Below are positions 13,174-49,506 of a DNA stretch of 64,000 nt, piece after piece (within the stretch, counting starts at the first letter, position 1; the number at the start of each line of letters is the position of its first letter). A program made the position numbers and the translations under genes. Location of the stretch: the NCBI GenBank assembly GCA_947259095.1, contig CAMYLA010000009.1, positions 62,001-126,000 of the forward strand. Reading direction: 5' to 3'. The stretch is from an uncultured Acidimicrobiaceae bacterium (GTDB lineage: Bacteria > Actinomycetota > Acidimicrobiia > Acidimicrobiales > SZUA-35). The notes below the pieces were generated by a model. It was not told the origin of the DNA. It saw only the letters and a program-made list of their open reading frames with translations, and did no database searches.

Positions 13174-13181
13174 GAACACCC

Positions 13182-22647: not shown

Positions 22648-22654
22648 GGGTCGG

Positions 22655-23502: not shown

Positions 23503-23537
23503 GGGCTGCTCGCCCGTTCGGCCGAACCGGACCGGAC

Positions 23538-24857: not shown

Positions 24858-25052
24858 TGGATACTCCTCGGGAAGCGGGCGGACCGAGCCCCCGCCGATC
24901 GATCGGGCGACGCGGACCGCTCTTGTCGGCGAGGCTAGCCCGCTTCGGTCACGGGGTAGAAGTTGGTGGCGGGCCTGGGCGGCATCGTCCTCGGCCTCGA
25001 CATCGGCGTCGGGGCGTGGAACCGGACGGCCGGGGCAGTCGATCGGGTCTGG

Positions 25053-34477: not shown

Positions 34478-37400
34478 TTGACCGATGACAACGACCAGAT
34501 GTGGTACCCGCAAGAGGACCCGGACGGACAACTGTCCCAGCTCGTCGCCCACCGCGACCAGCTCATCGTGGCCCTCCGGGAAACCGACGACCCGAACCTG
34601 AGGTCGGATCTGGCTTTTCAGCTCCGGGCGGTGACCGACCGCATCGAGGAGTTGACCTGGTCATTGGCCGACCAGCCTGAGCAACACAGCCAACCGGCCG
34701 AGCCCGAGCCGACGGCCGAACAGGCGAGCCCCGGCATCGAGGTCCAGCTCGGCGACCCGGATCTGTCGGCCGACGAGCAGGCCGTTCTGGATCGGCTCGA
34801 CTTCGAGGACCCCGGGCCCGACGGCCTCGGGTTCGGCGATAACGGGCTCGACGATCACGACGTCGACGGCCCCCAGGTCGAGGGGCACGATCTCCAGGGC
34901 CACGAACTCCAGGAGCACGATCTCCAGGGGCACGATGCCCCTGGCTACGGCGACCCCCGGGCCGAGACCGACGGCCTGCTCGATCTCGAGTGGACCGGCG
35001 ACGAGCAACACCCTCACGCCCGGACGACCTCCGAGCAGCCCGCCGGCAGCGTGGCGCCGCCCGAGCCCGCTCCCGCCGATCTGTGGCCGGCCGACCCCAC
35101 TGCCGCCGAGCAGCCGTGGGGACAGGGGTGGGACGGGTCACCGGCGGGCCGGGAATGGCAGGATGGGTCACCGACCGAGACCAGGCAGATGGAACAGCCA
35201 CCGGCCGACCCGGACTGGTCCGAGGAGCCACCCCTCGGACAACCATGGCCCAACCCTGCGCCGGTCGATGCGGTGAGCGATCAGCCGGGCGCCGGGGGCC
35301 GGGCCTGGCCGGAGCAGCATCGACCGGACCAGAGCTGGCACGAACCGGCACCTGGCCATGAGCCGGATGATGCGAGCCACCGGTCGCCGGACGCCGACCA
35401 CCAGCCACTCCACGAACGAACCATGCAGCACCGTGACGTCGACAGCCGAGGCATCGACGAGTCCTCCGGCCCGGCGCCGCAGGCCGACGTGCCCGGCGAC
35501 GAACGACACATCGACCGCTCGGACCAAGATCGGACCGGGCACGACCATTGGTACGAGCCGGCACCGGATCAGCAGGCGATCGTCGACCGTCCCTACGCCT
35601 GGCCGGACCCGGTTCAAGAGCCACCCCAGCAGCCCTTCACCTCGAACGGCCCCTCGATTGGTGGTCAGCCCCCCGCCTCCATGGCCGATCGACCGCTCGA
35701 CGCGTCAGCAGACCCACCGCAGGATCCGCAGTTCGGTTCGCCCCAGGATCCGCAGTTCGGTTCGGTGGGGAGTGGCTACCGCCCCTCGATGATCTCACGG
35801 CCAATACCGGGGTCATCGGTGCCGAGACCGTACCGACCTCCGATCGAGGGTCGTCCCCGTCGGGCTGCGGCCAACGGGCCACGGCCCGACCGGGGCAGAG
35901 CCGACCGGGCGACGGCACCGCTGAACGAGCCCCAGGACGGCTCCCCTGTTCGCGATGGGTTCGTGAGACCCTCCGGCCCCGTCCTGGCGGTGGTCGGGAT
36001 CAGCCTGGCACTGCTGGCGGGCGTTCTCTGGTTCGGGGATGCCGGTCGCTCAACCAGCACCGCCAACGAGGCCGTCGCACCGGCCGGCCCCGAGGTCGCC
36101 TCCGAGAGCGGTCCGGACGCCGAGGTTGTGGCCGGGGTGAATACAGCGATTCAGGATCTCGGCCTGCCCGGCGTGGTGGCCGATGTCCGGGACGGGGTCA
36201 TCCACGTCGCCGGGCCGGTGCCGACCCAGGCCGACTACGACGCCGTGGCCGCCGCAGTGGGCGCCGCGGCCGCGACCTACCCGGTGGATCTCTCGGCTCT
36301 GGTGGTCATGGGTGACGAGGCGGGAACCGCCGAGGATGCCGCCCCGGTATCGACTGCAGATCGGCCGGAGGCCCTCCAGAACGAACTGGATCGCATCCTG
36401 GCCGCCACGCCGCTGATCTTCAACCCGGGAGAGGCGGCGCTGACCGAACTCCATCAGCGGATCCTCAACAACGCGGTGATCTCACTCCAGGCCTACCCGG
36501 GTTTCAACCTGACGGTCGCCGGCTACACCGACGACACCGGTGACGACGCCCAGAACCGCCAGTTGTCCCTGAGTCGGGCCGAGAACGTTCGGGCCTATCT
36601 CGTCGCCCAGGGCCTGCCAGAAGGGGCGTTCCAGGTCGAAGCCAGGGGTGAGGACACCTCGAGTGGTTCGGCCGGCCTGGCCGGACTCGAACGCCGAGTG
36701 GAGTTCGAGGTGACCGGTGCCGGTGCGCTGCCGGCCGGAAACCAGGACGCCATCAGGGTGGCCATCGTCGCCCCCAGCGCCAGCAACGATCTCGCCTTCA
36801 CCCAGAGCATGGTCGATGCCGTGAACCTCATCGCCTCGGAACGTCCGATCGAACTGGCGGTGACCGACAACACCTTCGTCCCCGAGGAGGCCGCCGCTGC
36901 GGTGCGAGGCTACGCCGAGCAAGGCTTCAACCTGGTCATCGCCCACGGCTCGCAGTTCGGAGCGGCGCTGCTCGACATCGCCCCCCAATTTCCCGCCACC
37001 ACATTCGCCTGGGGAACCGCCAGCGACACCTTCGGGCTGCCGAACGTCTATGCCTATGACGCCGCGGCCCAGGAGGGTGGCTACGTCCTGGGGGCCCTGG
37101 CCTCCGGGCTCAGCAACAGTAAGGTCGTCGGTGTGGTGGGGCCGATCGAGGTCGGCGACGCGGCCCAGTACGTGAACGGCTTCGATGCCGGTGCCAAGGC
37201 CGAGAACCCGTCCACCAATGTGCTGGTGAGCTACATCGGCTCGTTCTCCGACATCGGCCTGGCGTCCGAAGCAGCCAAGGCCCACCAGAGCGGCGGGGCT
37301 GATGTCATGACCGGTTCGGCCCAGATGGTGGTCGGAGCCATCGCCGCCGCCGAACAGCAGGGAACGCTGTGGTTCGGCACGCAGGCCAACCAGGCCCCAC

Positions 37401-37636
37401 TGGCTCCCAGCATCGTCGTTGCGTCCCAGGTCTACCACTGGGAGGTCGCCATCCGACCGATCATCGCCGACATCGAAGCGGGGACCATCGCCGGCAAGTC
37501 CTACACCGCCAACCTGGCCAACGGCGGCCTCGTCATCGAATACAACCCCGAGTACCCACTGGCCCCCGAGGCCCGGCAACGGGCAGACGAGCTCAGCGCC
37601 GCCATCGCCAACGGTTCCATCACCCCGCCGCAATAG
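34478..37636 (+). CDS. TM-BON-OmpA-BMP fusion: peptidoglycan-anchored ligand-binding protein
   Basis: A 1052-residue protein with parts not known to me in one chain. Residues 1 to about 500 are disordered, Pro/Asp/Gln/His-rich and presumably cytoplasmic. About 501-521 is one membrane helix (GPVLAVVGISLALLAGVLWF). About 545-610 resembles a BON domain (VVADVRDGVIHVAGPVPTQ). About 636-730 is an OmpA C-terminal domain with the peptidoglycan-binding GYTDDTGDDAQNRQLSLSRA. From about 759 to the end is a BMP/PnrA-type binding domain (IRVAIVAPSASNDLAFTQSM, then VVGVVGPIEVGDAAQYVNGF). TM-BON-OmpA matches mycobacterial ArfA/OmpATb; BMP proteins bind nucleosides or signals. It starts at TTG with aaggag 8 nt upstream. 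No ABC transporter genes adjoin. A role in wall-anchored sensing or capture is inferred. Confidence 0.8.
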   Translation: MTDDNDQMWYPQEDPDGQLSQLVAHRDQLIVALRETDDPNLRSDLAFQLRAVTDRIEELTWSLADQPEQHSQPAEPEPTAEQASPGIEVQLGDPDLSADEQAVLDRLDFEDPGPDGLGFGDNGLDDHDVDGPQVEGHDLQGHELQEHDLQGHDAPGYGDPRAETDGLLDLEWTGDEQHPHARTTSEQPAGSVAPPEPAPADLWPADPTAAEQPWGQGWDGSPAGREWQDGSPTETRQMEQPPADPDWSEEPPLGQPWPNPAPVDAVSDQPGAGGRAWPEQHRPDQSWHEPAPGHEPDDASHRSPDADHQPLHERTMQHRDVDSRGIDESSGPAPQADVPGDERHIDRSDQDRTGHDHWYEPAPDQQAIVDRPYAWPDPVQEPPQQPFTSNGPSIGGQPPASMADRPLDASADPPQDPQFGSPQDPQFGSVGSGYRPSMISRPIPGSSVPRPYRPPIEGRPRRAAANGPRPDRGRADRATAPLNEPQDGSPVRDGFVRPSGPVLAVVGISLALLAGVLWFGDAGRSTSTANEAVAPAGPEVASESGPDAEVVAGVNTAIQDLGLPGVVADVRDGVIHVAGPVPTQADYDAVAAAVGAAAATYPVDLSALVVMGDEAGTAEDAAPVSTADRPEALQNELDRILAATPLIFNPGEAALTELHQRILNNAVISLQAYPGFNLTVAGYTDDTGDDAQNRQLSLSRAENVRAYLVAQGLPEGAFQVEARGEDTSSGSAGLAGLERRVEFEVTGAGALPAGNQDAIRVAIVAPSASNDLAFTQSMVDAVNLIASERPIELAVTDNTFVPEEAAAAVRGYAEQGFNLVIAHGSQFGAALLDIAPQFPATTFAWGTASDTFGLPNVYAYDAAAQEGGYVLGALASGLSNSKVVGVVGPIEVGDAAQYVNGFDAGAKAENPSTNVLVSYIGSFSDIGLASEAAKAHQSGGADVMTGSAQMVVGAIAAAEQQGTLWFGTQANQAPLAPSIVVASQVYHWEVAIRPIIADIEAGTIAGKSYTANLANGGLVIEYNPEYPLAPEARQRADELSAAIANGSITPPQ
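35720..35764 (+). repeat. 24-bp tandem repeat inside the disordered region of the fusion protein
   Basis: A 21-bp identical segment occurs at 35720-35740 and 35744-35764, encoding two QDPQFGS units. A second, looser repeat at about 34885-34945 encodes GHDLQGHELQEHDLQGHD. Both lie in the cytoplasmic low-complexity tail and look like slippage-type expansions. Confidence 0.75.
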
Positions 37637-37842: not shown

Positions 37843-38050
37843 CCAGCTGGTCAGGCGCTCGCCGTCGCCGTACGGCAGATCCAGCGAACGTCCTGACTTC
37901 TGCCTGCAAGTCAACAACGCCGACCAGGCGCTGTCCACCCTGATGCGCAGTAATGTGGAGTAGCGCCGTCACCTCTCGACCACGGTCGACCGGATGACGA
38001 CGTCGGTTCGGTCCAGCCGTTCGATACCCGCCGGCTCGCGGCCTCGATCC

Positions 38051-39346
38051 TCAGGGGTGATCCGAGTGGCGCTCGAGGGCATCGAAGATCGCCTGTTCGG
38101 TCTCGGCCAGTCCCTCCTGAGCGGTGTCAACGCTGGTCGGGACCCAGTTCTGATCCACCGGCTGAGCACCGGCCCGTCGGCCGACACCGACCACCCAGGT
38201 CGTCGAAGGCCTGGCCACGATCCGGAACGGCACCTTCGGGTCGAACCAGTGGGCCGACACCAACGTCGGCCCGGTGAAGGTCACTTCGCGGTGCCACCGG
38301 CCTCGGCGGAACACAACCTGACCATCGCCTTCTTCGTCGTGGAGGTGGACCCACATCGGGCCCCGCCAGAATGGTGGTAGTGCCACCGAGCCCGAGCCGT
38401 GGCCCGATCGCAATTCGAGGACGGTGAGGCGGCCCTCGGCGCCGAGTGTGTGATCAAGCGCGATCGGCAGGACCGGGTCGTGCGGCTGGCCGACGTCGGT
38501 CTCGAACCGGCGCAAGGTGTCGCGGCCGACCTCGATCTCGGTCCGGTGGAAGAGACGCTCGGCCGTTGCCATGAGGGAAAGCCCCCTGGCCCGCCGCAGA
38601 CGGGCGAACCGGGTTCGCTCCACGATGTCGATCCCCTCCGGCTCCAGGGGCCACCGCTTGGGGATGGGCCGCTCCGAAGGTGGTCGATCGGAGTGCCTCA
38701 TGTAACTCGACACCGCCTGGGGGGCGGCGGCTGCGAGATCGAGGGCCTCGGGAGCACCGGCCGAGAGCTTCGACGCCAGGTTGGAGCTGAACAAGTCCAT
38801 GAACGGACCATCGGCGGTACTCCGGCTGAACATGGAGATGGCGTCGACGATCGATGCGCCGGGAATGGTCCTCGGAAGTTCTCCATAACCAAAGTCGGCC
38901 CAACCCGGCTCGGAGAGGTGTATCACGACCGGCGAGTCGGCGATCGATGCACCGACGGTCACGAACAAGCCGTTCGGCCCGACGTCGAAATCGGCCTCGA
39001 GGCGGGCCACCCCCCACTCCCCCTCCAACGACACCTCGGTGGCTGGGCTCCGGAGCCACAGCCACACCGGCCGTGAACGTCCGGGGAAGACCTTGCTCCA
39101 GACCCGCCCGGGATCGAGTCCCTGCGGTGTGCTCATCCCCCAGAGCAGACCTTCGAGGGTCTGTTCGCCCTTGAGCGCCTCGTCGAGGTCTGCCATTTCG
39201 ATCGAAATGGCTCTGGTCCCCCGCTCCCAGTTCGAGAGCGCGCTGGGACGAACGTTGAGCCGCTCGGCCACCTCTTGCTGGGTCAGACCCAAGACTTCGG
39301 TTCGCCACCAACGAAGGACGTCGCCGGTCGAACGCCACGGAACCAT
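38051..39346 (-). CDS. XRE-family regulator with two helix-turn-helix segments
   Basis: A 431-residue DNA-binding protein. The N-terminal HTH_3 domain is clear: LGLTQQEVAERLNVRPSALSNWERG near 20-44. A second, diverged HTH-like stretch (RLRRARGLSLMATAERLFH...TLRRFETDVG) occurs in the C-terminal half. Between and after them are sheet-rich segments (VWLWLRSPATEVSLEG, PMWVHLHDEEGDGQVVFRRG) that may bind a ligand; no family is recognised. The second ATG at 39346 is chosen because TATGTT ends 7 nt before it. It lies 87 bp downstream of ATP-grasp gene 1 on the same strand, so it is the likely regulator of the ligase island. Confidence 0.7.
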   Translation of the reverse strand: MVPWRSTGDVLRWWRTEVLGLTQQEVAERLNVRPSALSNWERGTRAISIEMADLDEALKGEQTLEGLLWGMSTPQGLDPGRVWSKVFPGRSRPVWLWLRSPATEVSLEGEWGVARLEADFDVGPNGLFVTVGASIADSPVVIHLSEPGWADFGYGELPRTIPGASIVDAISMFSRSTADGPFMDLFSSNLASKLSAGAPEALDLAAAAPQAVSSYMRHSDRPPSERPIPKRWPLEPEGIDIVERTRFARLRRARGLSLMATAERLFHRTEIEVGRDTLRRFETDVGQPHDPVLPIALDHTLGAEGRLTVLELRSGHGSGSVALPPFWRGPMWVHLHDEEGDGQVVFRRGRWHREVTFTGPTLVSAHWFDPKVPFRIVARPSTTWVVGVGRRAGAQPVDQNWVPTSVDTAQEGLAETEQAIFDALERHSDHP

Positions 39347-39353
39347 TGTGTCC

Positions 39354-39359
39354 AACATA
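39354..39359 (-). promoter_or_regulatory. -10 box TATGTT, leaderless start of XRE regulator
   Basis: On the minus strand TATGTT is followed by 7 nt and the ATG at 39346. This argues against the ATG 12 nt further upstream, which overlaps the box. Confidence 0.45.
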
Positions 39360-39433
39360 GTCGCTCGGACCGGGCCGTACCCTGCCTACGGCTCGGAGTG
39401 GCCAAAGATTATGGACCGTGACCGGGTCGCCGC

Positions 39434-40654
39434 TCAGCTTGCGAAGACCCGGACCCGACGCCCGACATCGTCCAGGAGGTCACGCAGGGCGTCGAAGTCC
39501 TGGTGGCGGGCTCGCAGCCAGGCGTTGGCCATGTACCCGGCCTCGACCGGCTGGGTCGCGGTGCCGACGGAGGGGAGATGAAAATCGATGATGTTTCCGC
39601 CATAGTCGTGGCGAACGCCGTCGAGGCCCTCGTAGTGGGTGATGTGGCCGTCCTGGTTCGGCCGCATGGCGATCATCCCGGCGCTGAACCGGCGAGAGGC
39701 CCGGCGATCGGTGTGGCCGTTGACCAGGAGTTGAGCCCACTCGCGGTACATGTCGAGATCGTTGCCCGCCGAGTAGAGATCCCACATCGACACCCCGGGC
39801 GGCCGGCAACCGATCTCGGAGAACTTCAGACCTCTCGGCCCGAAGAACCACTCCATATGGGTGGCGGAGGTGCCGATGTCGAGCGCGGCCAGCACCCGGC
39901 GGCCCATCTCCTTGACCTCGTCGTATCGGTCGGCCTCGGCCTGATTGGTCGTGATGATCTGGGGCGAGATCCAACGGGTGCGCATCGCCTCCAGAACCCC
40001 CGGGTAGTAGTGGGAGACGAACTCGTGCCGCACCTCACCGCCGGCGGTGAGGGTGTCCCAGAAACCTTCGTGACCTTCGATGAACTCCTCGATGGCCACC
40101 GATCGGCCCCCCTCGACCCCGGCCTGGCGGAGGGCCTCGTCGAGTTGCCCCCGATCGTCGACCCGGTGGGTTCCCGATGCCCCCGCACCGTCTCGAGGTT
40201 TGACGATCAACGGGTAGCCGATCCGGTCGGCGAAGGTCGCCGCCTCGTCCATCGAGGAGGCGCCGGTCGATTGGGCGGTGGGAATCCCGGCCTCGGCCAA
40301 CACCTCCTTCATCGCCGGTTTGTCCCGGCACAGCCAGGCGGTCCTGGCCGAGGTACCGGGAATGGTGCACTGTTCCCGGACGTGGGCTGCGGCCATGATG
40401 TGGGCCTCGACGGTCACCTCCAGCCGGTCGACCCACTCCCGGGCCTGGACCCGGCGAACCGCATCGAGTAGCGCAGCTTCGTCGACCACCGAGCCGATCT
40501 GCTCATAGCCGGAAAGCCGGCCCTTCAGATCGTCGTCGAGGGCGTCGACGTGGCTCTCACCGATGCCGGTCACCCGGGCCCCGACCTCGACAAGAGCCCG
40601 GACGAACTCACGCTGGTTCCTGGGAAACGATGGTTCGACGAACAGTACGTGCAT
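39434..40654 (-). CDS. ATP-grasp ligase 1
   Basis: A 406-residue ATP-grasp enzyme joining a carboxylate to an amine (or thiol) through an acyl-phosphate. HVLFVEPSFPRNQREFVRAL forms the preATP-grasp lobe. RIGYPLIVKPRDGAGASGTHRV carries the ATP-binding Lys and Gly-rich loop, VAIEEFIEGHEGFWD the hinge acid residues, and THMEWFF...FSEIGCRPPG the Mg-binding Glu and Arg. It is a paralogue of the ligases at 40810 and 42075, sharing HMEWF and E-x-x-x-R-x-P-G. A ggagg ribosome site is 7 nt from the ATG; an ATG 60 nt upstream is not preferred. It is transcribed divergently from ligase 2 and followed by the XRE gene. Confidence 0.83.
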   Translation of the reverse strand: MHVLFVEPSFPRNQREFVRALVEVGARVTGIGESHVDALDDDLKGRLSGYEQIGSVVDEAALLDAVRRVQAREWVDRLEVTVEAHIMAAAHVREQCTIPGTSARTAWLCRDKPAMKEVLAEAGIPTAQSTGASSMDEAATFADRIGYPLIVKPRDGAGASGTHRVDDRGQLDEALRQAGVEGGRSVAIEEFIEGHEGFWDTLTAGGEVRHEFVSHYYPGVLEAMRTRWISPQIITTNQAEADRYDEVKEMGRRVLAALDIGTSATHMEWFFGPRGLKFSEIGCRPPGVSMWDLYSAGNDLDMYREWAQLLVNGHTDRRASRRFSAGMIAMRPNQDGHITHYEGLDGVRHDYGGNIIDFHLPSVGTATQPVEAGYMANAWLRARHQDFDALRDLLDDVGRRVRVFAS

Positions 40655-40765
40655 GTCCACGCCTCCAGCATGCGTTCTGGGAGATCCGCCGGTCGGCACC
40701 GGAGCGGTGTGCAACGCAGGATGGCTGCGAAGCTAGCAGTTCTCGCCCCTGCCGACGAGTGCTCC

Positions 40766-40771
40766 TATCAT
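40766..40771 (+). promoter_or_regulatory. -10 box TATCAT of the rightward ligase operon
   Basis: TATCAT ends 6 nt before an ATG at 40778, the start of an 11-codon leader ORF. The arrangement is leaderless and identical in spacing to other starts in the window. The divergent gap between ligases 1 and 2 is only about 155 bp. Confidence 0.5.
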
Positions 40772-40777
40772 GCAGCC

Positions 40778-40813
40778 ATGTCGTTCCCGGCCAGCGGTCC
40801 TCGTCCGCGATGA
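40778..40813 (+). CDS. 11-codon leader ORF (MSFPASGPRPR) coupled to ATP-grasp ligase 2
   Basis: An ATG placed 6 nt after the TATCAT box opens the frame M-S-F-P-A-S-G-P-R-P-R-stop. Its TGA overlaps the ligase 2 ATG at 40810 as ATGA, so translation of the ligase may depend on termination of the leader. The peptide ends in Arg-Pro-Arg. It could be a regulatory leader peptide, a substrate peptide, or simply the 5' end of a leaderless mRNA. Confidence 0.4.
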   Translation: MSFPASGPRPR

Positions 40814-42078
40814 CTTCGGTCGTGCTGGCGGCACCGTACGGCCTCGACAGCACGATGCGGTTCGTCTCCGCTGCGGCCTCGCTTCCCGGTGTCGATCTTG
40901 GCGTGATCTCCCACGAGCCGGCCGAGGCCTTCCTGGCCCGGCTCGATGCCGACCAGCGCAGCCGGGTGAAGAGTTTCGCCCAGGTTGGCAATGTCATCGA
41001 TCCCGATCAGTTGGAGGTCGGGGTCCGCCGCGTTGTCGACGGTCTCGGCGGCAGGGTCGACGCCCTCGACGGCATTCTCGAACCGCTGCAGGAATCCCTG
41101 GCCGAGGTCCGCCAGCGGCTCGGCATCCGGGGGATGGACCGGGCCGAGGCTCGACGATTCCGGGACAAGGCCCATATGAAGGAGACGCTCCGGGCCGCCG
41201 GGTTGCCCTGTGCCAGACACTGCCTGGCCCGGAACGAAGCGGAGGCCATGGCCTTCGCCGACCAGGTCCTGCCGATCGTGGCCAAGCCACCGGCCGGTGC
41301 CGGCGCCATCGACACCTTCCGCATCGATGAGCGACATCAGCTCGAGGGCTGGTGTCGAGCCACTCCCCCGACCGCGGATCGGCCGCTCCTGCTCGAGGAG
41401 TTCATCGAGGGTGACGAGTTCTCCTTCGACTCGGTGACCGTGGGCGGCGAGCACCGATTCCACTCCATCTCCAGGTACGCCCCGACACCGCTGCAGGTGA
41501 TGCGGACACCGTGGATCCAGTGGACGGTCCTGCTCCCCAGAGACATCGACGGACCGGAGTTCGCAGACATCGGCGAGGCCGGACCGGCAGCGCTGCGAGC
41601 ACTCGGCATGGTCACCGGCATCTCCCATATGGAGTGGTTCCGGCGGGCCGATGGGTCGATCGCCATCTCGGAGGTTGCGGCCCGGCCACCGGGCGCCCAG
41701 ATCACCAGCCTGATCTCCTACGCCCACGACCACGACTTCTACCGGGCCTGGGCCCAGCTGGCAGCGTTCGGCACCTTCGATCGCCCGACCCGACGTTACG
41801 CCGCCGGTGCCGCCTACCTGCGGGGTCAGGGCGAGGGCCGGGTGCTGGCGGTGGCGGGCATCGACGAGATCCGCGACGAGCTCGGCCCACTCGTGGTGGA
41901 GTCCAGGTTGCCGCAGCCCGGCCAGGCCAAGGCCTCGGGCTATGAGGGTGAGGGTTACGTCATCCTTCGCCACCCCGAAACGGAGGTGGTGGCCGACGGC
42001 CTGGAGCGGCTGGTGTCGCGCCTGGCCGTTCACCTCGACGGTGCCGGCCCTGACGGGGACCGGGGTGCGAGCCGGTGA
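40810..42078 (+). CDS. ATP-grasp ligase 2
   Basis: A 422-residue ATP-grasp ligase. The N-terminal lobe starts with TSVVLAAPYGLDSTMRFVSAA. LPIVAKPPAGAGAIDTFRI carries the ATP-binding Lys, LLLEEFIEGDEFSFDSV the hinge and acidic residues, and SHMEWFRRADGSIAISEVAARPPG the Mg-binding motif. The Gly-rich loop is slightly degraded compared with ligases 1 and 3. It probably forms an amide or ester bond with an amino acid. It is the first full gene of the rightward operon, overlaps the leader ORF upstream (ATGA), and is coupled to ligase 3 by GTGA. Confidence 0.8.
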   Translation: MTSVVLAAPYGLDSTMRFVSAAASLPGVDLGVISHEPAEAFLARLDADQRSRVKSFAQVGNVIDPDQLEVGVRRVVDGLGGRVDALDGILEPLQESLAEVRQRLGIRGMDRAEARRFRDKAHMKETLRAAGLPCARHCLARNEAEAMAFADQVLPIVAKPPAGAGAIDTFRIDERHQLEGWCRATPPTADRPLLLEEFIEGDEFSFDSVTVGGEHRFHSISRYAPTPLQVMRTPWIQWTVLLPRDIDGPEFADIGEAGPAALRALGMVTGISHMEWFRRADGSIAISEVAARPPGAQITSLISYAHDHDFYRAWAQLAAFGTFDRPTRRYAAGAAYLRGQGEGRVLAVAGIDEIRDELGPLVVESRLPQPGQAKASGYEGEGYVILRHPETEVVADGLERLVSRLAVHLDGAGPDGDRGASR

Positions 42079-43301
42079 GAGTGTTGATGTTGTCGCCCGG
42101 CTTTCCGGCCGACATGCCGTTCTTCACCCGGGCGCTGGCCCGGCAGGGGGCGGAGGTGATCGGCGTCGGCGACCAGCCGCAGTCCGAGCTCGCCGGTGAG
42201 GTGGCGGAAGCCCTCGCCGCCTATCTGCACCTGCCGGAGCTGTGGAACGAGGACCGGACCATCGATGAGACGGCGGGCTGGCTGGAGCAGCGGGGCCTGC
42301 ACGTCGACCGGGTCGAGTGCCTCTGGGAGCCGGGGGTGGTCCTGGCGGCCAAACTCCGAGCCCGCCTTGGCCTGCCGGGGCTGTCGGTGGAACAGGCCGT
42401 TGCCTTCCGGGACAAGGAGACGATGAAACAGGTGCTGGACCGGGCCGGCATCCGGACCCCCCATCACTACCGGGCCGCCACCAGGGTCGAGGTGTGGTCT
42501 GCAGCCGAACGGGTCGGGTACCCGCTGGTGGTCAAGCCGATCGATGGTGCCGGTTCGGCCGACACCCACACCGCAGCCGGGCCGGACGAGCTGGACCGGG
42601 TGCTGTCGGCGGTGCAACATGTTGCCCAGGTGTCGGTCGAGGAGTACATAGACGGCGAGGAGTACACCTACGACACCGTTTGCGCCGATGGGCGGGTCTT
42701 GTTCGAGAACGTGTGCTGGTACCGGCCGAAACCGCTGGTGACCAGGCTCAACCCCTGGATCAGCCAGACCGCGATCTGCCTGGCCGACCTCGGGACCGAG
42801 GAGATCTCGGTCGGCGTCGACCTGGGCCGGCGGGTGCTCAACGCACTGGGGTTCGAGACCGGCTTCACCCACATGGAGTGGTTCCGAAACGCGGCCGGCG
42901 AGGCCGTGTTCGGCGAGATCGGCGCCCGATCGCCGGGCGGGCGACTCCCCCACGGCATGAACTTCACCGCCGACATCGACGTGTTCGACGCCTGGGCCGA
43001 GGCGGTCTGCCACCGGCGACTGTCGCAGGACACCGCCAAGCGCTACAACGCAGCGTTGATCTTCAAGCGGGCCGAGGGCGAAGGCGATCGGATCTCCCGG
43101 GTCGACGGGCTCGAGCCGCTGCTGGCCCGGTACGGTCCGTTCCTTCCCGTCATCGACCTGGTCCCCGTCGGTCAGCCACGCCGTGATTGGCGGCAAGTGG
43201 TCACCGGTGACGGCTGGCTGGTCGCTCGCCACCCCGATCTGGCCACCACGATCCACATCGCCGACCGCATCGCGGCCGAGGTTCGCATGGTGGCGGAGTG
43301 A
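42075..43301 (+). CDS. ATP-grasp ligase 3
   Basis: A 408-residue paralogue of ligases 1 and 2. RVLMLSPGFPADMPFFTRALARQGAEVIGVG forms the preATP lobe. RVGYPLVVKPIDGAGSADTHTA holds the ATP-binding Lys and loop, VSVEEYIDGEEYTYDTV the hinge, and THMEWFRNAAGEAVFGEIGARSPGG the metal site. GTG start at 42075, overlapping ligase 2's stop. Three adjacent paralogues suggest successive additions of different building blocks, one bond per enzyme. The S51/esterase fusion starts 31 bp downstream. Confidence 0.82.
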   Translation: MRVLMLSPGFPADMPFFTRALARQGAEVIGVGDQPQSELAGEVAEALAAYLHLPELWNEDRTIDETAGWLEQRGLHVDRVECLWEPGVVLAAKLRARLGLPGLSVEQAVAFRDKETMKQVLDRAGIRTPHHYRAATRVEVWSAAERVGYPLVVKPIDGAGSADTHTAAGPDELDRVLSAVQHVAQVSVEEYIDGEEYTYDTVCADGRVLFENVCWYRPKPLVTRLNPWISQTAICLADLGTEEISVGVDLGRRVLNALGFETGFTHMEWFRNAAGEAVFGEIGARSPGGRLPHGMNFTADIDVFDAWAEAVCHRRLSQDTAKRYNAALIFKRAEGEGDRISRVDGLEPLLARYGPFLPVIDLVPVGQPRRDWRQVVTGDGWLVARHPDLATTIHIADRIAAEVRMVAE

Positions 43302-43332
43302 GCGGGCAATCGTCTACCGGGTATCGGTCACG

Positions 43333-45561
43333 GTGAGCACCGTCAACCCGCCGATCGTGCTGCTCGGCCCCCAGCGTCGGCAACAGACGGTGGCCAAGGC
43401 CATCGCCGACCTCGGGCTGAGCGGACCGCTGGCCACGATCACTGCGGGCTGGGAGGAGCGGGAGCGGGAGGACGCCGAGTTGTCCCTGGACCTGGGGGGC
43501 AGGACCCGGAACCTCGGTCTGTTTCCCCGAGCCGAGGAGGTGTTCGCCGAGGACCCGGCGGTCCAGACCGCGGTTGCCGACCTCCAGGACCAGCGGCGAC
43601 GGCTGCGAGACCTCTACCGGCTTCGGCTGGGACCGCAACTCCAGGTCTGTCGAACGTTGCTGCGCCGAACCGATCCGGCCCGGCCCGACGATCTGCACGG
43701 CCCCGAGATCGACAGCGCCATCGAGGCGGTCCGAGCCCTGGACCGGCATCACCACGACCGGGTGGCCGAGCTGGAAGCGGCGTCCAGCCGACGGCTGGCG
43801 GAGGCCGAACGACCGTCGCTTTGCCGACATCGAGCCGAGCTGGCGGCCATCCTGGCCGACGCCGAAGGGCTGCTGGTGGCGGGGGGCAACGTCGCCACGC
43901 TGCTCACGCTCCTGCGGCTGTTCGACATCCCGTCGCTGGCCGCAGGCAAACCGGTGGTGGCCTGGTCGGGTGGTGCCATGGTGGTTTGCGAGCGGGTGGT
44001 CCTGTTCCACGACAGCCCGCCCCAGGGCGGGGGCGATGCCGAGCTCTACGGCCCGGGGCTGGGTCTGGCCCGGGGAGTGATCCCGCTCCCCCACGCCAGG
44101 CACCGGCTGCAACTCAACGATCCCCACCGGGTGGCGCTGTTCGCCAGACGGTTCGCCCCCGACCTCTGCGTCGCCCTCGACTACGGCGGACACATCGACG
44201 AGGCCCGACCGGACGCCGGCGCCGACAACGAGCGGGGCCCAGGCGGGGAATCGCCGGTCCGGGGGGTCGGTTGGCGCCCGGCCGGCGCCGCCTCGATCCT
44301 GGCCGTCGACGGTCGGATCGTCGGCCCATCATCGCTGGAGACCAGACTCGGGCCGCCGGGTCGGCCCGGGCCGGCCCCGGTCGCAGGACGGTCCGAGGCC
44401 GGCAGGGCCCCGGCCGCCCGGGACCCGACGATGGTCATCGACCGGCTCCGGGAGGCGGCGCAGCATGGAGACGGTGCGGTCGATGCCGCCATTGCCTCGA
44501 TGGAGGTACCGGTCGTCGGTGACGGCTGGGCGCTGCTCATCTACCGGGGACCGGCCGAGGTGGTCAGATTCCAGCATTGGCTGTCGGGACTCCCCTCAGC
44601 CCCGCCATTCGAACGACTCCCGGGTACCGACCTGTGGACGTTGGAGATCCAGATCCAGGACCGGGCCAGGATCGAGTACAAACTGGAAGTCGTTCGTGGA
44701 CCCCATCGCGAACTGATCCGGGACCCGCTCAATCCAGCGGTGGCCAACGACCCGTTCGGGGGGAACTCGGTGGTGCAGGCCATCGGCTACACCACACCAC
44801 CGTGGACCATGGAGCAGGACAGCACCCGCCGGGGCACCATCCACCGTGCGGCGCTGGCCAGCACTGCATACGGCGAGACGCGTCCCTACTCGCTCTACCT
44901 CCCTGCCCGGTTCCGGACCACCCGGCGTTATCCGTTGCTGATCGTCCACGACGGGCTCGACTACCTGCACTACGCCAACCTCGTCCCGGTTCTGGACAAC
45001 CTCATCCATCGGCTGGAGATCCCGCCGCTGGTGGCGGCACTCATCCCCTCGAACGACCGGACGACCGAGTACGTGGCCGACGAGCGCCATGCCCGTTTCA
45101 TCGTCGAAGATCTCCTCCCCGGCCTCGAGCGGGAGTTGCCGCTGCTCGACGATCCAGCTGACCGTGCCCTGGTGGGAGCCAGCCTTGGCGCGGTGGCGGC
45201 GCTCCACACCGCCTGGTCGAACCCCGGCAGCTTCGGCAAACTGTTGCTGCAATCGGGCTCCTTCGCCTTCACCGACATCGGCGACCACGACCTGGGGCCG
45301 ATCTTCGATCCGGTCGTGGCGTTCGTGAACCGGTTCCGCACCGATCCGGGGCGTCCGGCCGATCGGATCTTCCTCTCGGCCGGCATCTACGAATCGCTGA
45401 TCTACTTCAACCGATCCCTGTTGCCGGTGTTCCAATCGACCGGGGCCGAGGTTCGCCTCGTGGAGGCCCAGGATGGCCACAATTGGCAGAACTGGCGGGA
45501 CCAGCTCCGCGAGGGCCTGACCTGGTTGTTCCCCGGGCCACTGGCGATGGACTACGAGTAG
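43333..45561 (+). CDS. fusion of peptidase S51/type-1 GATase-like domain with an Fes-like esterase
   Basis: A 742-residue protein of two enzymes. Residues 1-300 resemble the peptidase E/cyanophycinase (S51) fold: IVLLGPQRR, ATITAGWEERE and LLVAGGNVATLL, with the nucleophile elbow AWSGGAMVV (Ser212) and a helical insert at about 80-165. A Gly/Pro/Arg-rich linker covers about 300-360. Residues 400-480 look like an early-set/CBM48-type domain (FERLPGTDLWTLEI). From about 490 is an esterase D/enterochelin-esterase domain with ALVGASLGAVAAL (Ser617) and late DGHNWQNW His. It could cleave or release the ligase product: peptidase for isoaspartyl-type or N-terminal bonds, esterase for ester bonds. 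GTG start. Confidence 0.78.
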   Translation: MSTVNPPIVLLGPQRRQQTVAKAIADLGLSGPLATITAGWEEREREDAELSLDLGGRTRNLGLFPRAEEVFAEDPAVQTAVADLQDQRRRLRDLYRLRLGPQLQVCRTLLRRTDPARPDDLHGPEIDSAIEAVRALDRHHHDRVAELEAASSRRLAEAERPSLCRHRAELAAILADAEGLLVAGGNVATLLTLLRLFDIPSLAAGKPVVAWSGGAMVVCERVVLFHDSPPQGGGDAELYGPGLGLARGVIPLPHARHRLQLNDPHRVALFARRFAPDLCVALDYGGHIDEARPDAGADNERGPGGESPVRGVGWRPAGAASILAVDGRIVGPSSLETRLGPPGRPGPAPVAGRSEAGRAPAARDPTMVIDRLREAAQHGDGAVDAAIASMEVPVVGDGWALLIYRGPAEVVRFQHWLSGLPSAPPFERLPGTDLWTLEIQIQDRARIEYKLEVVRGPHRELIRDPLNPAVANDPFGGNSVVQAIGYTTPPWTMEQDSTRRGTIHRAALASTAYGETRPYSLYLPARFRTTRRYPLLIVHDGLDYLHYANLVPVLDNLIHRLEIPPLVAALIPSNDRTTEYVADERHARFIVEDLLPGLERELPLLDDPADRALVGASLGAVAALHTAWSNPGSFGKLLLQSGSFAFTDIGDHDLGPIFDPVVAFVNRFRTDPGRPADRIFLSAGIYESLIYFNRSLLPVFQSTGAEVRLVEAQDGHNWQNWRDQLREGLTWLFPGPLAMDYE

Positions 45562-45572
45562 CCTTGGCCGCC

Positions 45573-46823
45573 ATGGGTACACCTGTGACGAGAAGGATCG
45601 GCCTCTCCCTCGGGGCCGACATCTGCTGGCCGAAGTGTTTCGAGGACCTCGTCGCCCGCTGGGACCCGACCCTGGAGATCGGTGACGAGACGGTCAGGTT
45701 CGAGGTGGAGCGGGTCACCATCGAACCGTTCGACCTCCGCCAGCCGGTGGCCTACGACGTGGTGATCGACCGCTTGACCCACTGGCACGCCAACACCCGG
45801 GAGTGGATCAAGAAGGCGATCCTGCTCGACGACCTCTACGTGTTCAACAATCCCTGGTCGGTGCAGTCGATGGAGAAGCAGACGACCTACTGCGCCATGA
45901 TGCGCCTCGGGCTGCCCATCCCCGAGACGTGGATGGTGCCGCCCAAGGAATACGACTCGGTGCCGGACCTGGAGCCGACGTTGCAGCGCTACGCCAACCT
46001 GTTCGACCTCGAGCCGATCGGCGACGGGATCGGCTACCCGCTGTTCATGAAGCCATACGACGGCGGCGGCTGGGTCGGGGTTTCCAAGGTGGACAGCGCA
46101 GGCGAGCTCCGGGCCGCGTACGAGACCAGCGGAAAGTTCCTGATGCACCTGCAGCAAGGGGTGGCCCCCTACGAGGACTTCGTCCGCTGCGTCGGGGTCG
46201 GGCCCCAGCTGCGGGTGGTCTCCTACGACCCGGATGCACCCCTTCACGGCCGCTACACCAACCGGTTCGATCATCTGCCGGACGACGACATGGCCCGGCT
46301 GCGGGCCACCACGCTGACGATCAACACCTTCTTCGGGTGGGACTTCAACTCCTGTGAGTGCCTCGGCCAGGGCGGCACCTGGTACCCGATCGACTTCGCC
46401 AACCCCTGCCCCGACTCCCAGATCACCTCGCTCAACCGGCACTTCCCCTGGTTGGTGCTGGCCAAGCTCCGGTGGTCGATGTTCTGCGCCGCCACCGGCC
46501 GCCCGTTCCGCAAGAACCTCGACTGGCAGCCGTTTCTCGACATCGCAGACACCGACGCCGACCAGGCCGACAAGCTGGCGGCCTACGGTCGGCTGGCCGA
46601 GGAACACTTCGAGACCGAGGCCTTCGAGCGGTTCTGCCGTGACCATCTGGAACCGCTGGAGGAGGTCGCCTTCGAGTACTTCGCAAGCGACGACGCCAAG
46701 GCCGCAGTCAGGCAGAAGGTCACCGCCATGTACCCTCCCCATGAGGTGGATGAGTTCACCGAACGCTTCTGGGCGTCGATCCAACAGTGGCGCAACGAAG
46801 AGTCCCCGGTGGCCAACCGATGA
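45573..46823 (+). CDS. ATP-grasp ligase 4 (distinct subfamily)
   Basis: A 416-residue ATP-grasp protein unlike the other three. RRIGLSLGADICWPKCFEDL starts the N-terminal lobe. GIGYPLFMKPYDGGGWVGVSKV carries the ATP-binding Lys and Gly loop, and FLMHLQQGVAPYEDFVRCVGVG the hinge region. TWYPIDFANPCPDSQITSL supplies Asp and Asn for Mg. A helical C-terminal tail follows. Genes of this type are often found beside esterase and amidoligase genes. It starts 11 bp after the fusion gene. Its TGA overlaps the first of three mini-ORFs (ATGA) that lead to the esterase. Confidence 0.8.
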   Translation: MGTPVTRRIGLSLGADICWPKCFEDLVARWDPTLEIGDETVRFEVERVTIEPFDLRQPVAYDVVIDRLTHWHANTREWIKKAILLDDLYVFNNPWSVQSMEKQTTYCAMMRLGLPIPETWMVPPKEYDSVPDLEPTLQRYANLFDLEPIGDGIGYPLFMKPYDGGGWVGVSKVDSAGELRAAYETSGKFLMHLQQGVAPYEDFVRCVGVGPQLRVVSYDPDAPLHGRYTNRFDHLPDDDMARLRATTLTINTFFGWDFNSCECLGQGGTWYPIDFANPCPDSQITSLNRHFPWLVLAKLRWSMFCAATGRPFRKNLDWQPFLDIADTDADQADKLAAYGRLAEEHFETEAFERFCRDHLEPLEEVAFEYFASDDAKAAVRQKVTAMYPPHEVDEFTERFWASIQQWRNEESPVANR

Positions 46824-46913
46824 CCCCGCCGACCGGCACCACGGCAGAACGGCGCCAATGAGCACAACGGCAGAACGGCGCCGATGAGCACCGCGACGGA
46901 ACGGCGCCAATGA
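46820..46913 (+). promoter_or_regulatory. staircase of three coupled mini-ORFs with a 26-bp tandem repeat
   Basis: Between ligase 4 and the esterase are three tiny frames chained by ATGA overlaps. MTPPTGTTAERRQ is at 46820-46861, MSTTAERRR at 46858-46887 and MSTATERRQ at 46884-46913, and the last stop overlaps the esterase ATG at 46910. The start codons at 46858, 46884 and 46910 are exactly 26 nt apart because a 26-bp segment is tandemly repeated. As 26 is not a multiple of 3, each copy begins a new frame. It may be a reinitiation ladder or a slippage duplication of the start region. Confidence 0.6.
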
Positions 46914-47647
46914 GCAAGTTCTCGCAACGATGGTGGTCGCCACGGGTGGGCCGCGAGGTGAACGTGGTTCGCTGGGGCGAGATCGGTCGACCGGTGCTGC
47001 TGTTCCCGACCGCGGCCGGCGACGCCGAGGAGGTGGAGCGGATGCTGATGATCGAGGCGTTGTCGCCGCTGCTGGAGGCGGGCCGGCTCAAGCTCTACTC
47101 GGTCGATTCTGTTCCCGGCCAGATGTGGTTGAACGAGAGCAACCAACAGCCGGCCGCCACCGCCATCCAGGCCGGCTTCGACCGCTTCATCGTCGACGAG
47201 TTGATCCCGGCCATACACACCGACTGCGGCGGCCCGGCCGACATCGTGGCCGCAGGGGCGTCGATCGGGGCCTTCAACGCCTTGGCTGCGATCTGTCGCC
47301 ACCCGGAACTGATCTCCGCTGCGATCTGCATGTCGGGAACCTACGACCTGTCGGACTTCCTCGAAGGTGACGTTGACGAGAACTGGTACCTGGCCTCACC
47401 GCTGCACTTCGTGCCGAACCTTCCCGAAGGCCACAGGAACCTGGACGATCTGCGGCGGCGGTTCGTGCTGCTGGCGCACGGAACCGGCCGTTGGGAGAGC
47501 CCGGAGCAGTCGTGGCGGGTGGCCGAGTGCCTGGGGGCCAGGGCCGTTCCCAATCGGGTCGACGAGTGGGGCCCGGAGTGGGACCACGACTGGCCGACCT
47601 GGCGTCGGATGTTACCCCAGTACCTCGACGAGCTGCTCCCGACCTGA
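46910..47647 (+). CDS. esterase (esterase D/enterochelin-esterase-like)
   Basis: A 245-residue alpha/beta hydrolase, single domain. PVLLFPTAAGDAEEVER is the oxyanion region, AAGASIGAFNALAAI the nucleophile elbow (Ser118), and HGTGRWESPEQSW then WDHDWPTWRRM provides the catalytic His226. The SKFSQRWWSPRVGREVNVVRWGE start is typical of the group found beside ATP-grasp genes. It may release an ester-linked intermediate or detoxify the product. It is translated at the end of the mini-ORF ladder, and a hairpin follows. Confidence 0.82.
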   Translation: MSKFSQRWWSPRVGREVNVVRWGEIGRPVLLFPTAAGDAEEVERMLMIEALSPLLEAGRLKLYSVDSVPGQMWLNESNQQPAATAIQAGFDRFIVDELIPAIHTDCGGPADIVAAGASIGAFNALAAICRHPELISAAICMSGTYDLSDFLEGDVDENWYLASPLHFVPNLPEGHRNLDDLRRRFVLLAHGTGRWESPEQSWRVAECLGARAVPNRVDEWGPEWDHDWPTWRRMLPQYLDELLPT

Positions 47648-47655
47648 GCTGAGCC

Positions 47656-47677
47656 GGCAACGGCGGGCGGCGTTGCC
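47656..47677. terminator. candidate bidirectional terminator hairpin
   Basis: ggcaacg and cgttgcc form a 7-bp stem with an 8-nt loop in the 47-bp gap between the convergent esterase and GCS2 genes. There is no T-run, so its terminator role is tentative. Confidence 0.4.
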
Positions 47678-47694
47678 ATGCCTGGTCCCGGGCC

Positions 47695-48825
47695 TCAGCG
47701 GGCGACGGTCTCCTCGATCAAGAAGTCCACCACGAGCTTCAAGGCCTCATCGGCCTCCGCCCCTTCGGTCATCGCCTTCTCGTACACCGCGAGTTGCCGG
47801 TGGGCGCTGGTGCCGGTCTCGACGATCGACCGGGCGCCACGCAACTCGTCGAGGCATCGCAGCTGACGGGCGCCGGGCGCCAGCAGTTCGATCAGCTCGT
47901 CGAGCAGGTCGTTGAAGGGCACGATGGTCCCGAGCCCAAAATCGATGAGCCCGGCATCGGTGCCGTAGCGCTGGGCCCGCCAACGATTCTCCTGCACCAG
48001 CATGTTCGAATAGTGGCGCCACCGCTGGTTTGTGCGCTTCAGATCCCACAGCATCCACAGCACGCTCTGGAACAGCGCAGCCAGGGTTGCACCGTGGGCG
48101 GCGGTGGTGCAGACGTCGGCGATCCGCATCTCCAGGGTCGGGAACCGGCACGACGGTCGCAGGTCCCACCACAGCTTGCTGCCGTCCTCGAGCACCCCGG
48201 CCCTGGACAGCACGTCGACATGCCGCTGGTACTCGGCCCACGATGCGAAGTTCTCCGGCAAACCGGTCCGGGGCATCTCGTCGAACACCGACAACCGGTA
48301 CGACTTGAGCCCGGTGTGGTTGCCGTGCCAGAACGGCGACGAGGTCGACAGGGCCAAGATGTGGGGCAGGAAGTAGCTGGCCTGGTTCATCAGATCGACC
48401 CGCAGTTCGTCATCGTCGATCCCGACGTGGACGTGCATGCCGCAGATGAGCAGCCGTCTGGCCACCGCCTGATGATCGCGGGCCAGGGTCTCGTAGCGTT
48501 CCTTGCGGGTCGGCAGCTGGCTCAGCCACTGGGCGATGGGGTGGGTCGAAGCGGCGATGATCGCATAGCCGAATTCGCCGGCGACGTCGGCCAGGGCGGC
48601 CCGCAGTTCGAGAATCTCGGTGGCCGCCTCCGCCACCGACGCACACTTGGTGGTGCCGATCTCGAGCTGCGACTGGAGAAACTCGGTCGTCATCCGACCA
48701 TCGGTTGCGGCCTCGCCCCGCTCCAACAACTCCTCCGGCGGCTCGATCACCAGATCCCGGGTTGCCCGGTCCACCAGGAGGTATTCCTCTTCGATCCCGA
48801 TGGTGAACGACGGTGTCGTGGCCAT
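47695..48825 (-). CDS. carboxylate-amine ligase, GCS2/YbdK family
   Basis: A 376-residue GCS2-type ligase (glutamate-cysteine ligase 2, COG2170) with the fold of gamma-glutamylcysteine synthetase. SFTIGIEEEYLLVD has the Mg-binding Glu cluster near residues 10-14, CGMHVHVGID gives the metal/ATP His residues, SSPFWHGNHTGLKSYR the substrate loop, and LEMRIADV the late Glu/Arg. It forms an amide bond from a carboxylate (often Glu) and an amine using ATP. Ribosome site gggaggc. It converges on the ligase operon, extending the amidoligase island to five ATP-dependent ligases. In actinobacteria with mycothiol, ordinary glutathione synthesis is unlikely. Confidence 0.87.
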   Translation of the reverse strand: MATTPSFTIGIEEEYLLVDRATRDLVIEPPEELLERGEAATDGRMTTEFLQSQLEIGTTKCASVAEAATEILELRAALADVAGEFGYAIIAASTHPIAQWLSQLPTRKERYETLARDHQAVARRLLICGMHVHVGIDDDELRVDLMNQASYFLPHILALSTSSPFWHGNHTGLKSYRLSVFDEMPRTGLPENFASWAEYQRHVDVLSRAGVLEDGSKLWWDLRPSCRFPTLEMRIADVCTTAAHGATLAALFQSVLWMLWDLKRTNQRWRHYSNMLVQENRWRAQRYGTDAGLIDFGLGTIVPFNDLLDELIELLAPGARQLRCLDELRGARSIVETGTSAHRQLAVYEKAMTEGAEADEALKLVVDFLIEETVAR

Positions 48826-48993
48826 GCGTGCCTCCCGAACTCAGGGTGTCGCGACGTTAGCATCCGGTCCGCAACCCCAGCCATCCCTCCCCGACCCCGA
48901 CCCCTCGCCGACGGTCGAATGGAGCCGACCGGCCGAGTGGGGTAGAACATATGGTGCAAGCAGCGACCGAAACCAGGATGTCGAGGGGGATGT

Positions 48994-49506
48994 ATGGCTG
49001 TCGAGAAGTTCGCCGTCGAGGCGAGTCACATCATGATGTTCGCCAGGGCCGTCGGCGATCCGAATCCGCTGTACCACGACGAGGACTACGCAAAGGGCAC
49101 CGAGGCCGGTGGCATCATCGCCCCGCCGACCTTCGCCCAGGCCAGCGCCCAGTTCGATCCCGAGTACCGGCTCCGACCGAAGGTCGGTGAACCGTGGATG
49201 GGATCGGGCAAGGAGGCCACCGGCATCAAGCCGAAAGAACCAGGCCAATCGGGCGACGACGCCCCGGTGGGGATGGGGGCTCGGGGTCTGCATGCCGAGC
49301 AGCATTTTGAGTACCACCGCCCGATGCGGCCCGGTGATGTGCTGACCGCAACGGTCAAGCCGGGCGAGAGCTGGGAGAAGCAGTCGAAGAGGGCGGGCAC
49401 CTTGAAGTTCTCGGAGACGATCACCGAGTATCGCGATCAGCATGGCGAGTTGGTCGTCACCGCCCGAGGCGTCGGCGTGACCACCGAGAAGGCCGTCGAG
49501 GGCTGA
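48994..49506 (+). CDS. FAS1-like/MaoC N-terminal hotdog dehydratase subunit
   Basis: A 170-residue hotdog protein of the FAS1-like dehydratase (HadA/ChsH1-like) kind, normally the non-catalytic or partner half of an enoyl-CoA hydratase heterodimer. FAVEASHIMMFARAVGDPNPLYHDEDYA is the lead segment. GGIIAPPTFAQAS and GMGARGLHAEQHFEYHRPMRPGD continue the fold, where an HGE..F pattern is expected. Gtcgaggggga before the ATG serves as ribosome site. The catalytic MaoC partner starts 13 bp after its stop, so they very likely form one enzyme in acyl-CoA metabolism. Confidence 0.82.
   Translation: MAVEKFAVEASHIMMFARAVGDPNPLYHDEDYAKGTEAGGIIAPPTFAQASAQFDPEYRLRPKVGEPWMGSGKEATGIKPKEPGQSGDDAPVGMGARGLHAEQHFEYHRPMRPGDVLTATVKPGESWEKQSKRAGTLKFSETITEYRDQHGELVVTARGVGVTTEKAVEG

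Follow-up and report, generated by a model that had tools for sequence, protein, structure and literature searches.

A conserved island of ATP-grasp ligases and esterases in an uncultured Acidimicrobiaceae bacterium, and its recurrent neighbour glycogen synthase

What might a bacterium build with three ATP-grasp ligases of the L-amino acid ligase (LAL) type, a further, orphan ATP-grasp enzyme, a peptidase-like domain and two esterases, and do the genes for these proteins belong together? The question is raised by a gene island on a stretch of 64,000 nucleotides, here called the window (positions 62,001 to 126,000 of contig CAMYLA010000009.1, assembly GCA_947259095.1), from the Acidimicrobiia-type metagenome-assembled genome (MAG) of an uncultured Acidimicrobiaceae bacterium. 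The island occupies positions 39434-47647 of the window and has the layout <B C> D> E1-E2> F> G>, with arrowheads marking gene direction; the conserved unit comprises seven components, encoded by six genes in the window. It is a real, conserved and co-conserved enzyme system: the unit is transferable, residues of catalytic type are kept, and in relatives the B/C/D module has a strong positional tie to the gene for glycogen synthase (GlgA). We tentatively favor the reading that the island, a transferable unit, specifies amide ligation without a ribosome and that this pathway is coupled to the metabolism of alpha-glucan (glycogen): amide bonds would be made step by step, E2 and G would cleave or transfer esters, and the partner would be a glucan or glucoside. 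The components of the island are as follows (aa, amino acids).

39434..40654, minus strand: B, ATP-grasp ligase of the LAL type, 406 aa (Pfam, profile-to-PDB match, own clade; start by alignment)
40655..40809, no strand: divergent intergenic region between B and C, 155 bp (starts set by homologue alignment)
40810..42078, plus strand: C, ATP-grasp ligase of the LAL type (Pfam, profile-to-PDB match, tree; start by alignment)
42075..43301, plus strand: D, ATP-grasp ligase of the LAL type, 408 aa (Pfam, profile-to-PDB match, tree)
43321..44220, end approximate, plus strand: E1, Peptidase S51-like domain, the N-terminal part of the fused gene E (43321-45561) (PF03575)
44431..45561, start approximate, plus strand: E2, N-terminal E-set-like domain followed by a serine esterase of the CE1/enterochelin-esterase type (Pfam, PDB matches)
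45585..46823, plus strand: F, orphan Ddl-like ATP-grasp enzyme, 412 aa (Pfam matches of homologues, kept motif residues)
46910..47647, plus strand: G, alpha/beta-hydrolase esterase, 245 aa (Pfam Esterase)

A preliminary description of this DNA, made from the sequence alone, had listed eight open reading frames (ORFs) with their domains, namely these six genes and the adjoining genes A and H; all eight are present at 38051-48825 with third-codon-position G+C contents (GC3) of coding type, and the named domains are borne out by ORF calls, GC3 and scans of Pfam and NCBIfam. The 155-bp divergent gap that it reported is exact at 40655-40809, with starts from alignments at 40654 for B and 40810 for C, and no intergenic gap within B-G is longer; of its overlapping genes, C and D do overlap by 4 bp, whereas the other overlaps are gone once starts are set by alignment. 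A promoter and terminator scan of 37900-49000 found no sigma-70-like site and fewer terminators than in shuffled sequence; none of the repeats in the B/C gap, examined without a control set, was judged operator-like.

Gene order in relatives

An alignment of F was searched against 84,980 species genomes; at least 588 stretches matched, at least 435 encode an F relative, and the best 80 loci were kept. Counts out of 80 refer throughout to these best 80 of at least 435 F relatives, with gene presence determined by tblastn; 35 of the loci are longer than 21 kb, and many are cut by contig ends. The records carry seven phylum names (28 Planctomycetota, 12 Myxococcota, 12 Pseudomonadota, 9 Acidobacteriota, 5 Actinomycetota, 2 Gemmatimonadota, 1 Eiseniibacteriota; 11 without a phylum), labels that may err since nearly all of the loci come from MAGs. 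Two loci, L035 and L037, represent the window’s own genus (the same contigs occur in the genus genomes G429 and G430), and L045 represents its family. Besides F, the query, which is present in all 80 loci, E2 was found in 71, G in 69, E1 in 61, B in 50, D in 45 and C in 44; B, C, D, E2 and F occur together in 36 loci, under five phylum names and in some unlabelled records. Partners stand adjacent on the same strand in 61/61 cases for E1-E2 (fused genes included), 67/69 for F-G, 60/71 for E2-F and 30/41 for C-D, and the B and C genes occupy opposite strands in 30/38. The commonest layout, in 20 loci, is <B <glgA C> D> E1> E2> F> G>; the window layout is shared by L035 and L037 only, where E1 and E2 are likewise fused, whereas in most relatives E1 is a separate gene just before E2. 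The order of B-G is kept far outside the window’s class, and the grouping of these genes as a unit, already proposed in the preliminary description, stands; the homologues are not scattered singly without order. Three opposite-strand families (c6, c9 and c24) that are sited where D, G and E genes belong were judged to be antisense ORFs produced by simple ORF calling. At L091 (positions 10822-14406), a long ORF follows F in the place of G; its family, also seen in L090 and L075 (about 1,070-1,270 aa as called, with an over-long start), has no Pfam match.

Within the class Acidimicrobiia, gene E has matches, weak ones included, in 16 of 247 genomes, and the 12 neighborhoods examined contain the island in parts: E2-F-G in this order in eight loci (L026-L033, of which L028 is truncated at the end), B/C/D together with a gene of the E2 type in three (L023-L025), and E2, G and F with a GCS2 gene in one (L034). 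At E <= 1e-30, F is found in 11 and B in 4 of the 247 genomes; every B genome has three matches, corresponding to the B, C and D paralogues, and three of the four also have F, a co-occurrence with a hypergeometric P of 2.6e-4 that ignores kinship among the genomes. In a sample of other Actinomycetota, 14 of 198 genomes encode an F relative, at 38-46% identity; the 11 loci obtained from these consist of six with E2-G-F, one full locus, one with F-G and three with F alone. The full locus (L158, from genome G316 of another class in the same phylum) combines B, C, D, E1, E2, G and F, the last 46% identical to that of the window; its gene content suggests an older or distant form of the island. Next to the E2-G-F trio of some loci lie genes of ABC-2 transporters, encoding both parts in L160 and L167, the membrane part in L164 and the ATPase part in L163; such loci may represent a smaller, export-linked version of the island. 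The earlier remark that no exporter is encoded thus holds in the window, but not for these other Actinomycetota.

The encoded enzymes

By kinship to characterized enzymes, B, C and D are ATP-grasp ligases of the LAL kind. Their Pfam matches are to different models (B to CPSase_L_D2, 42.4 bits; C to ATP-grasp_3, 24.3 bits against a cut-off of 23.2; D to ATP-grasp_4, 29.8 bits against 27), and a profile of 12 B/C/D proteins, compared with the PDB, matched the LAL structure 4wd3 best (E 7e-37), which we take to be RizA, followed by 3vot (3.9e-25) and BacD (3wnz, 3e-21). The Lys of a KPxxGAG-type motif and the Glu and Arg of an ExxxRxPG-type motif, presumably ATP- and metal-binding, are kept in 53/53 B, 47/47 C and 46/46 D sequences. 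In a tree of 28 loci, chosen from those having all three genes, B, C and D form separate clades; since each falls on one side of a branch with a support of 100 in the SH-like approximate likelihood ratio test (SH-aLRT), the triplet predates its spread.

F is the weakest domain call of the island. Its only Pfam match, to Dala_Dala_lig_C, covers 37-38 residues and reaches 20.0 bits, under the cut-off of 24; no full-length Ddl model matched above its cut-off, the best NCBIfam model scoring 24 bits against 262, and the kinship to Ddl is weak by profile. Since 26 of 31 F homologues match Dala_Dala_lig_C at E <= 0.1, and the K of KPY, the E of FNSCE and the D and N of IDFAN are kept in 91/91 sequences, F can nevertheless be placed among the ATP-grasp enzymes, and these four residues would correspond to the nucleotide-binding Lys and the metal ligands. 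The four ATP-grasp enzymes of the preliminary description are in this way recovered, B, C and D by Pfam and F by its homologues’ matches and kept residues. Its interpretation, that successive ligases build amide bonds without a ribosome or a non-ribosomal peptide synthetase, is partly supported overall; three LAL-type ligases together with F suit such chemistry.

The Peptidase_S51 match in E rises from 23.0 bits in the over-long ORF to 25.3 bits for the domain alone (cut-off 23.9), and all 21 aligned E1 members match PF03575 at E <= 0.1. The Ser of the WSxGAM motif is present in the window and kept in 56/62 sequences, with Ala in four and Gly in one. This domain invites the explanation that carbon and nitrogen storage are under joint control: the ligases would make a cyanophycin-like reserve that E1, whose S51 family we take to be that of cyanophycinase, would degrade, while glgA and glgC make glycogen in parallel. 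The S51 match, the GlgC gene in 25 of the 80 loci and other nearby glucan genes would fit. Cyanophycin synthetase, however, has a Mur-ligase half that B, C and D are too short to include, and its models match these proteins in part only, at 15.8-47.2 bits, far below cut-offs of 850 and 877; moreover, the Ser of E1 is not strictly kept, and the two esterases are left unexplained. A storage role of this kind is improbable.

By sequence, E2 and G are esterases of the CE1/enterochelin type. The Pfam Esterase match is 68.0 bits in E and 33.6 bits in G; the Ser and His of the catalytic triad are kept in 80/80 E2 and 77/77 G sequences; and E2 members match Esterase in 23/23 and Enterochelin_N in 21/23 cases (E <= 0.1). 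The best PDB match of E2 is Fes (2b20); feruloyl esterases come next, along with CE1 proteins that carry N-terminal modules. An hhalign comparison of the E2 N-domain with a profile of GlgB/GlgX N-termini, from proteins that we presume to be correctly so named, gave a weak match over 66 columns (E 3e-4, probability 39%); E was 0.19-0.35 when four control stretches were compared with this profile, and 0.02-0.10 when the E2 N-domain was compared with three controls. The match is a weak sign that this domain may face a glucan.

The unit is kept under the names Acidimicrobiia, Planctomycetota, Myxococcota and others, with catalytic residues strongly kept in most of its enzymes, and should therefore be useful to its carriers. 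F and E1 belong to families for which we found no assigned substrate; the product of the island would help to annotate both in hundreds of genomes.

Glycogen synthase and the possible product

GlgA is present in 47 of the 80 loci and its presence tracks that of the B/C/D module, occurring as it does in 45/59 loci with any of B, C or D versus 2/21 without them; among loci longer than 21 kb the counts are 22/29 versus 0/6. It stands beside B on the same strand in 32/39 cases, with gaps between matches of -15 to 112 bp, and between B and C in 20 of the 80 relatives, where the window has nothing. Assuming one or two GlgA genes per 5-Mb genome, we estimate that chance would place fewer than one in 80 stretches of 21 kb, although the loci are not independent. 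Any glucan gene (GlgA, GlgC, GlgB, GDE_C, GH57, GH77 or GT3) is found in 54 loci, one other than GlgA in 28, and at least two kinds in 23; genes of GDE_C, GH57, GT3, GH77 and ABC kinds were counted from ORF clusters with one Pfam-scanned member each. The K, GG and L of KTGGL, DW, R, QKG, EP, GL and Q, motifs with presumed roles in glycogen synthase, are kept in 48/48 island GlgA proteins. In L076, L080, L085, L093, L109 and L114, mostly Myxococcota, a further gene family occupies the position immediately upstream of glgA, and the single member scanned, that of L109, has a match to N-formylglutamate amidohydrolase.

The association recurs in the window’s class. All three loci that combine B/C/D with an E2-type gene have a glycogen synthase (Glyco_transf_5 in L023 and L024; by sequence in L025), in the order GlgA-B-E2 on one strand in L024 and L025; in L023 the island genes lie around GlgC and GlgA, with GlgB, named from its sequence, beyond. 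Genome G013 has an F-G-GlgA run with GlgC alongside, and its GlgA belongs to the class’s own canonical clade (starred branch, 99). A GlgA tree was built by a quick method from 48 of the 50 island proteins, leaving out two that were short, and 18 from the class sample, one of which is G013’s own island gene; it includes one very long row, L135. Here L024 and L025 pair with class GlgA (starred, 96), twelve proteins of myxobacterial type form a clade (starred, 98), and the rest fall into several groups. Four label changes separate island from other GlgA, at least three of them forced by starred branches, and more than one event linking GlgA and island is therefore likely, in a tree that cannot tell gain from loss.

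The recurrent GlgA gene, missed by the preliminary description, changes the likely chemistry. In the pathway that we tentatively favor, B, C and D, judging from family kinship, would each convert a carboxylate to an activated acyl-phosphate and couple this to an amine, yielding a short aminoacyl or dipeptidyl unit to which F might add a further, unusual ligation. This unit could be carried on, prime, or be joined to a glucan or glucoside derived from ADP-glucose and made by GlgA, as the gene linkage suggests. E2, with its CBM48-like N-domain, and G would cut or transfer ester bonds on the conjugate, and E1 would trim its peptide part, as expected from their families; in the window’s genus, the glucosyl step could be served by the cell’s separate glycogen locus. 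A more specific proposal, that in some bacteria dedicated ATP-grasp ligases link amino acids or short non-ribosomal peptides covalently to glycogen or an alpha-glucan primer and CBM48-like esterases remove them, is doubtful at present. If true, it would provide a bacterial counterpart of protein-primed or decorated glycogen, on a transferable island that extends across several phyla.

Several observations weigh against a glucan-coupled pathway. Gene linkage does not show chemistry. No glgA adjoins the island in the window, in its four island-bearing genus kin or in the eight class loci L026-L033 (several of the contigs in all of these are short), and GlgA is absent from 14/59 loci with B/C/D. 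The residues flanking DW vary in island GlgA (N in 31 and H in 17 before it, H in 34 and Q in 14 after it); the CBM48-like match of E2 is weak, with Pfam CBM_48 in 1/23 and CBM_20 in 2/23 members; and the E1 Ser is missing in 6/62 sequences. There is no classical glycogen operon at the window: the only GT5 matches of its genome are on contigs C32 and C34, not on the window’s contig C9, and GlgA sits in an apparent glgP-glgX-glgA-glgC-glgB locus elsewhere (glgA identified by search, the other genes presumptively named). All five island carriers of the genus have GlgA, a co-occurrence that is uninformative because six of the seven members without the island have it too.

The island could lack any functional link to glycogen: B-G would be a metabolite cluster complete in itself, which at some time came to lie beside glgA by insertion and has since spread in its company. 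The island is complete without glgA in the window, and nine other window flank proteins have no close match at four genus loci, so that it moves alone; the glgA-B pair, however, survives large rearrangements, and in G013 the linked GlgA is of another clade. This explanation appears unlikely. Ranking next after a glucan-coupled pathway, and a possible alternative to it, is a small soluble amide-linked metabolite, dipeptide-like as with BacD or RizA and possibly an osmolyte, thiol or antibiotic, which GlgA, where present, would glucosylate or accompany only as a co-regulated neighbor, while E2 and G would serve release or self-protection as in siderophore systems. The LAL profile matches of B, C and D, the Fes match of E2, the ABC-2 genes beside the E2-G-F trio in L160, L163, L164 and L167, and the recurrence of GCS2 genes are all consistent with such a product; on the other hand, no exporter, carrier or resistance gene was recognized in the window core, GlgA retains glycogen-synthase motifs, and its linkage tracks B/C/D. 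For the favored glucan-coupled pathway, the pairing with GlgA leads to a testable question: do bacteria add amino acids to their glycogen, or to a glucoside made from its precursor?

Neighboring genes, transfer and known systems

Two genes adjoin the island in the window.

38051..39358, minus strand: A, XRE-type double helix-turn-helix (HTH) gene, judged outside the island (Pfam; locus survey)
47695..48825, minus strand: H, GCS2/YbdK-type carboxylate-amine ligase, optional neighbor (Pfam, NCBIfam)

Pfam matches in A (HTH_3, 43.6 bits; HTH_31 in two stretches) agree with the double HTH of the preliminary description, whereas its suggestion that A controls the island is not supported. In the 80 loci, some of which stop a short way past B, A was never found beside the island, and L184 and L185 lack it as well. 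Its homologues in the genus and family lie at other sites; they were found in 5 of 40 other relatives, and the window’s own genome has a second one. The five homologue stretches that were fetched contain no island genes, and in G430 A and F are on different contigs. A was rejected as an island regulator on these grounds. H is a GCS2 protein as first described (Pfam 201 bits; NCBIfam NF010039 passed at 505.6 versus a cut-off of 371), but an optional neighbor rather than a core gene, found beside the island in the window and in L037, one of the 80 loci; L184 and L185 do not have it, and L035 breaks off too close to G for its presence to be judged. In 12 loci (L045, L050, L059, L066, L080, L085, L087, L092, L093, L096, L109 and L114) a second type of GCS2 gene follows G, with CBS domains in the one member scanned, L096; since H belongs to another subfamily, GCS2 genes probably joined the island more than once.

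The island is patchy in the window’s genus, where it occurs in 5 of 12 genomes (that of the window, G429, G430, G431 and G434), and in the family it is found also in G447, these genomes being drafts that are 81-98% complete. G431 and G434 have the same order as the window, without A or H. When eleven flank proteins of the window were compared with four genus loci, H was found in L037 (81%) and a CoA-transferase weakly in L037 (29%), and no others, so that the site differs and B-G moves as a unit. In a tree of 50 of the 91 F proteins, the window F groups with those of L037 and L035 (starred branch, 98) within ten rows that are otherwise labelled Planctomycetota or unlabelled (starred, 100), distinct from two other types of F, that of the class E2-F-G loci and that of L045, L050 and L066; this nesting suggests transfer, subject to the reliability of MAG labels. 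Contamination of the MAG as the source (bin contamination 7.1) is unlikely, the island being present in 5 of 12 genus genomes with F identities of 70-78%. A phage, plasmid or defense origin was rejected after phage/plasmid and PADLOC searches: F had no phage or plasmid match at E <= 1e-10, B no plasmid match at E <= 1e-30, and PADLOC models did not match B-H, with a weak HTH match for A (20.8 bits). The window has no tRNA gene, and the scanned genes flanking the island are of other kinds (thiolases, acyl-CoA dehydrogenases, MaoC, SDR, MFS and others). Elsewhere in the window, a 1,052-aa ORF (34478-37636) has matches to an OmpA domain and to a Bmp/PnrA-like substrate-binding domain, an odd combination, and at 21115-26717 an SDR gene and an MFS gene lie beside two cytochrome P450 genes.

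A 2009 comparative-genomic survey of amidoligases by Iyer and colleagues reportedly grouped ATP-grasp and GCS2 ligases with hydrolases and peptidases. No pathway that explains the conserved B-G unit was found, a provisional conclusion. No description of the island was found in the literature covered, which included passages of PMC4431377, PMC8939145 and PMC11046441, while most subscription journals and the 2009 survey lay outside it; the novelty of the island is provisional because this survey would be the likeliest to mention it. In the text covered of PMC11046441, a 2024 review of prokaryotic alpha-glucan enzymes, the terms “ATP-grasp” and “esterase” are absent.

Among known systems, the L-amino acid ligases (4wd3; BL00235, 3vot; BacD, 3wnz) resemble B, C and D in profile match, length and ATP-grasp motifs; the island differs in that its three fixed paralogues, each in its own clade, are accompanied by F, a pair of esterases and, in many cases, GlgA. 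Fes and those CE1 esterases that carry N-terminal modules (2b20, 7b5v, 6rzn) share with E2 the plan of an N-terminal domain and a serine esterase, yet they are tied to siderophore or xylan genes, whereas E2 is tied to ATP-grasp ligases and glycogen synthase. Among the YbdK/GCS2 carboxylate-amine ligases (1r8g, 1tt4), H is a plain member, optional and beside the island in two loci. With the bacterial glycogen genes glgA, glgC and glgB, whose classical pathway to our knowledge has no role for four ATP-grasp ligases and two esterases, the island is associated through a GT5-type GlgA in 47 of the 80 loci, GlgC in 25 and GlgB in one.

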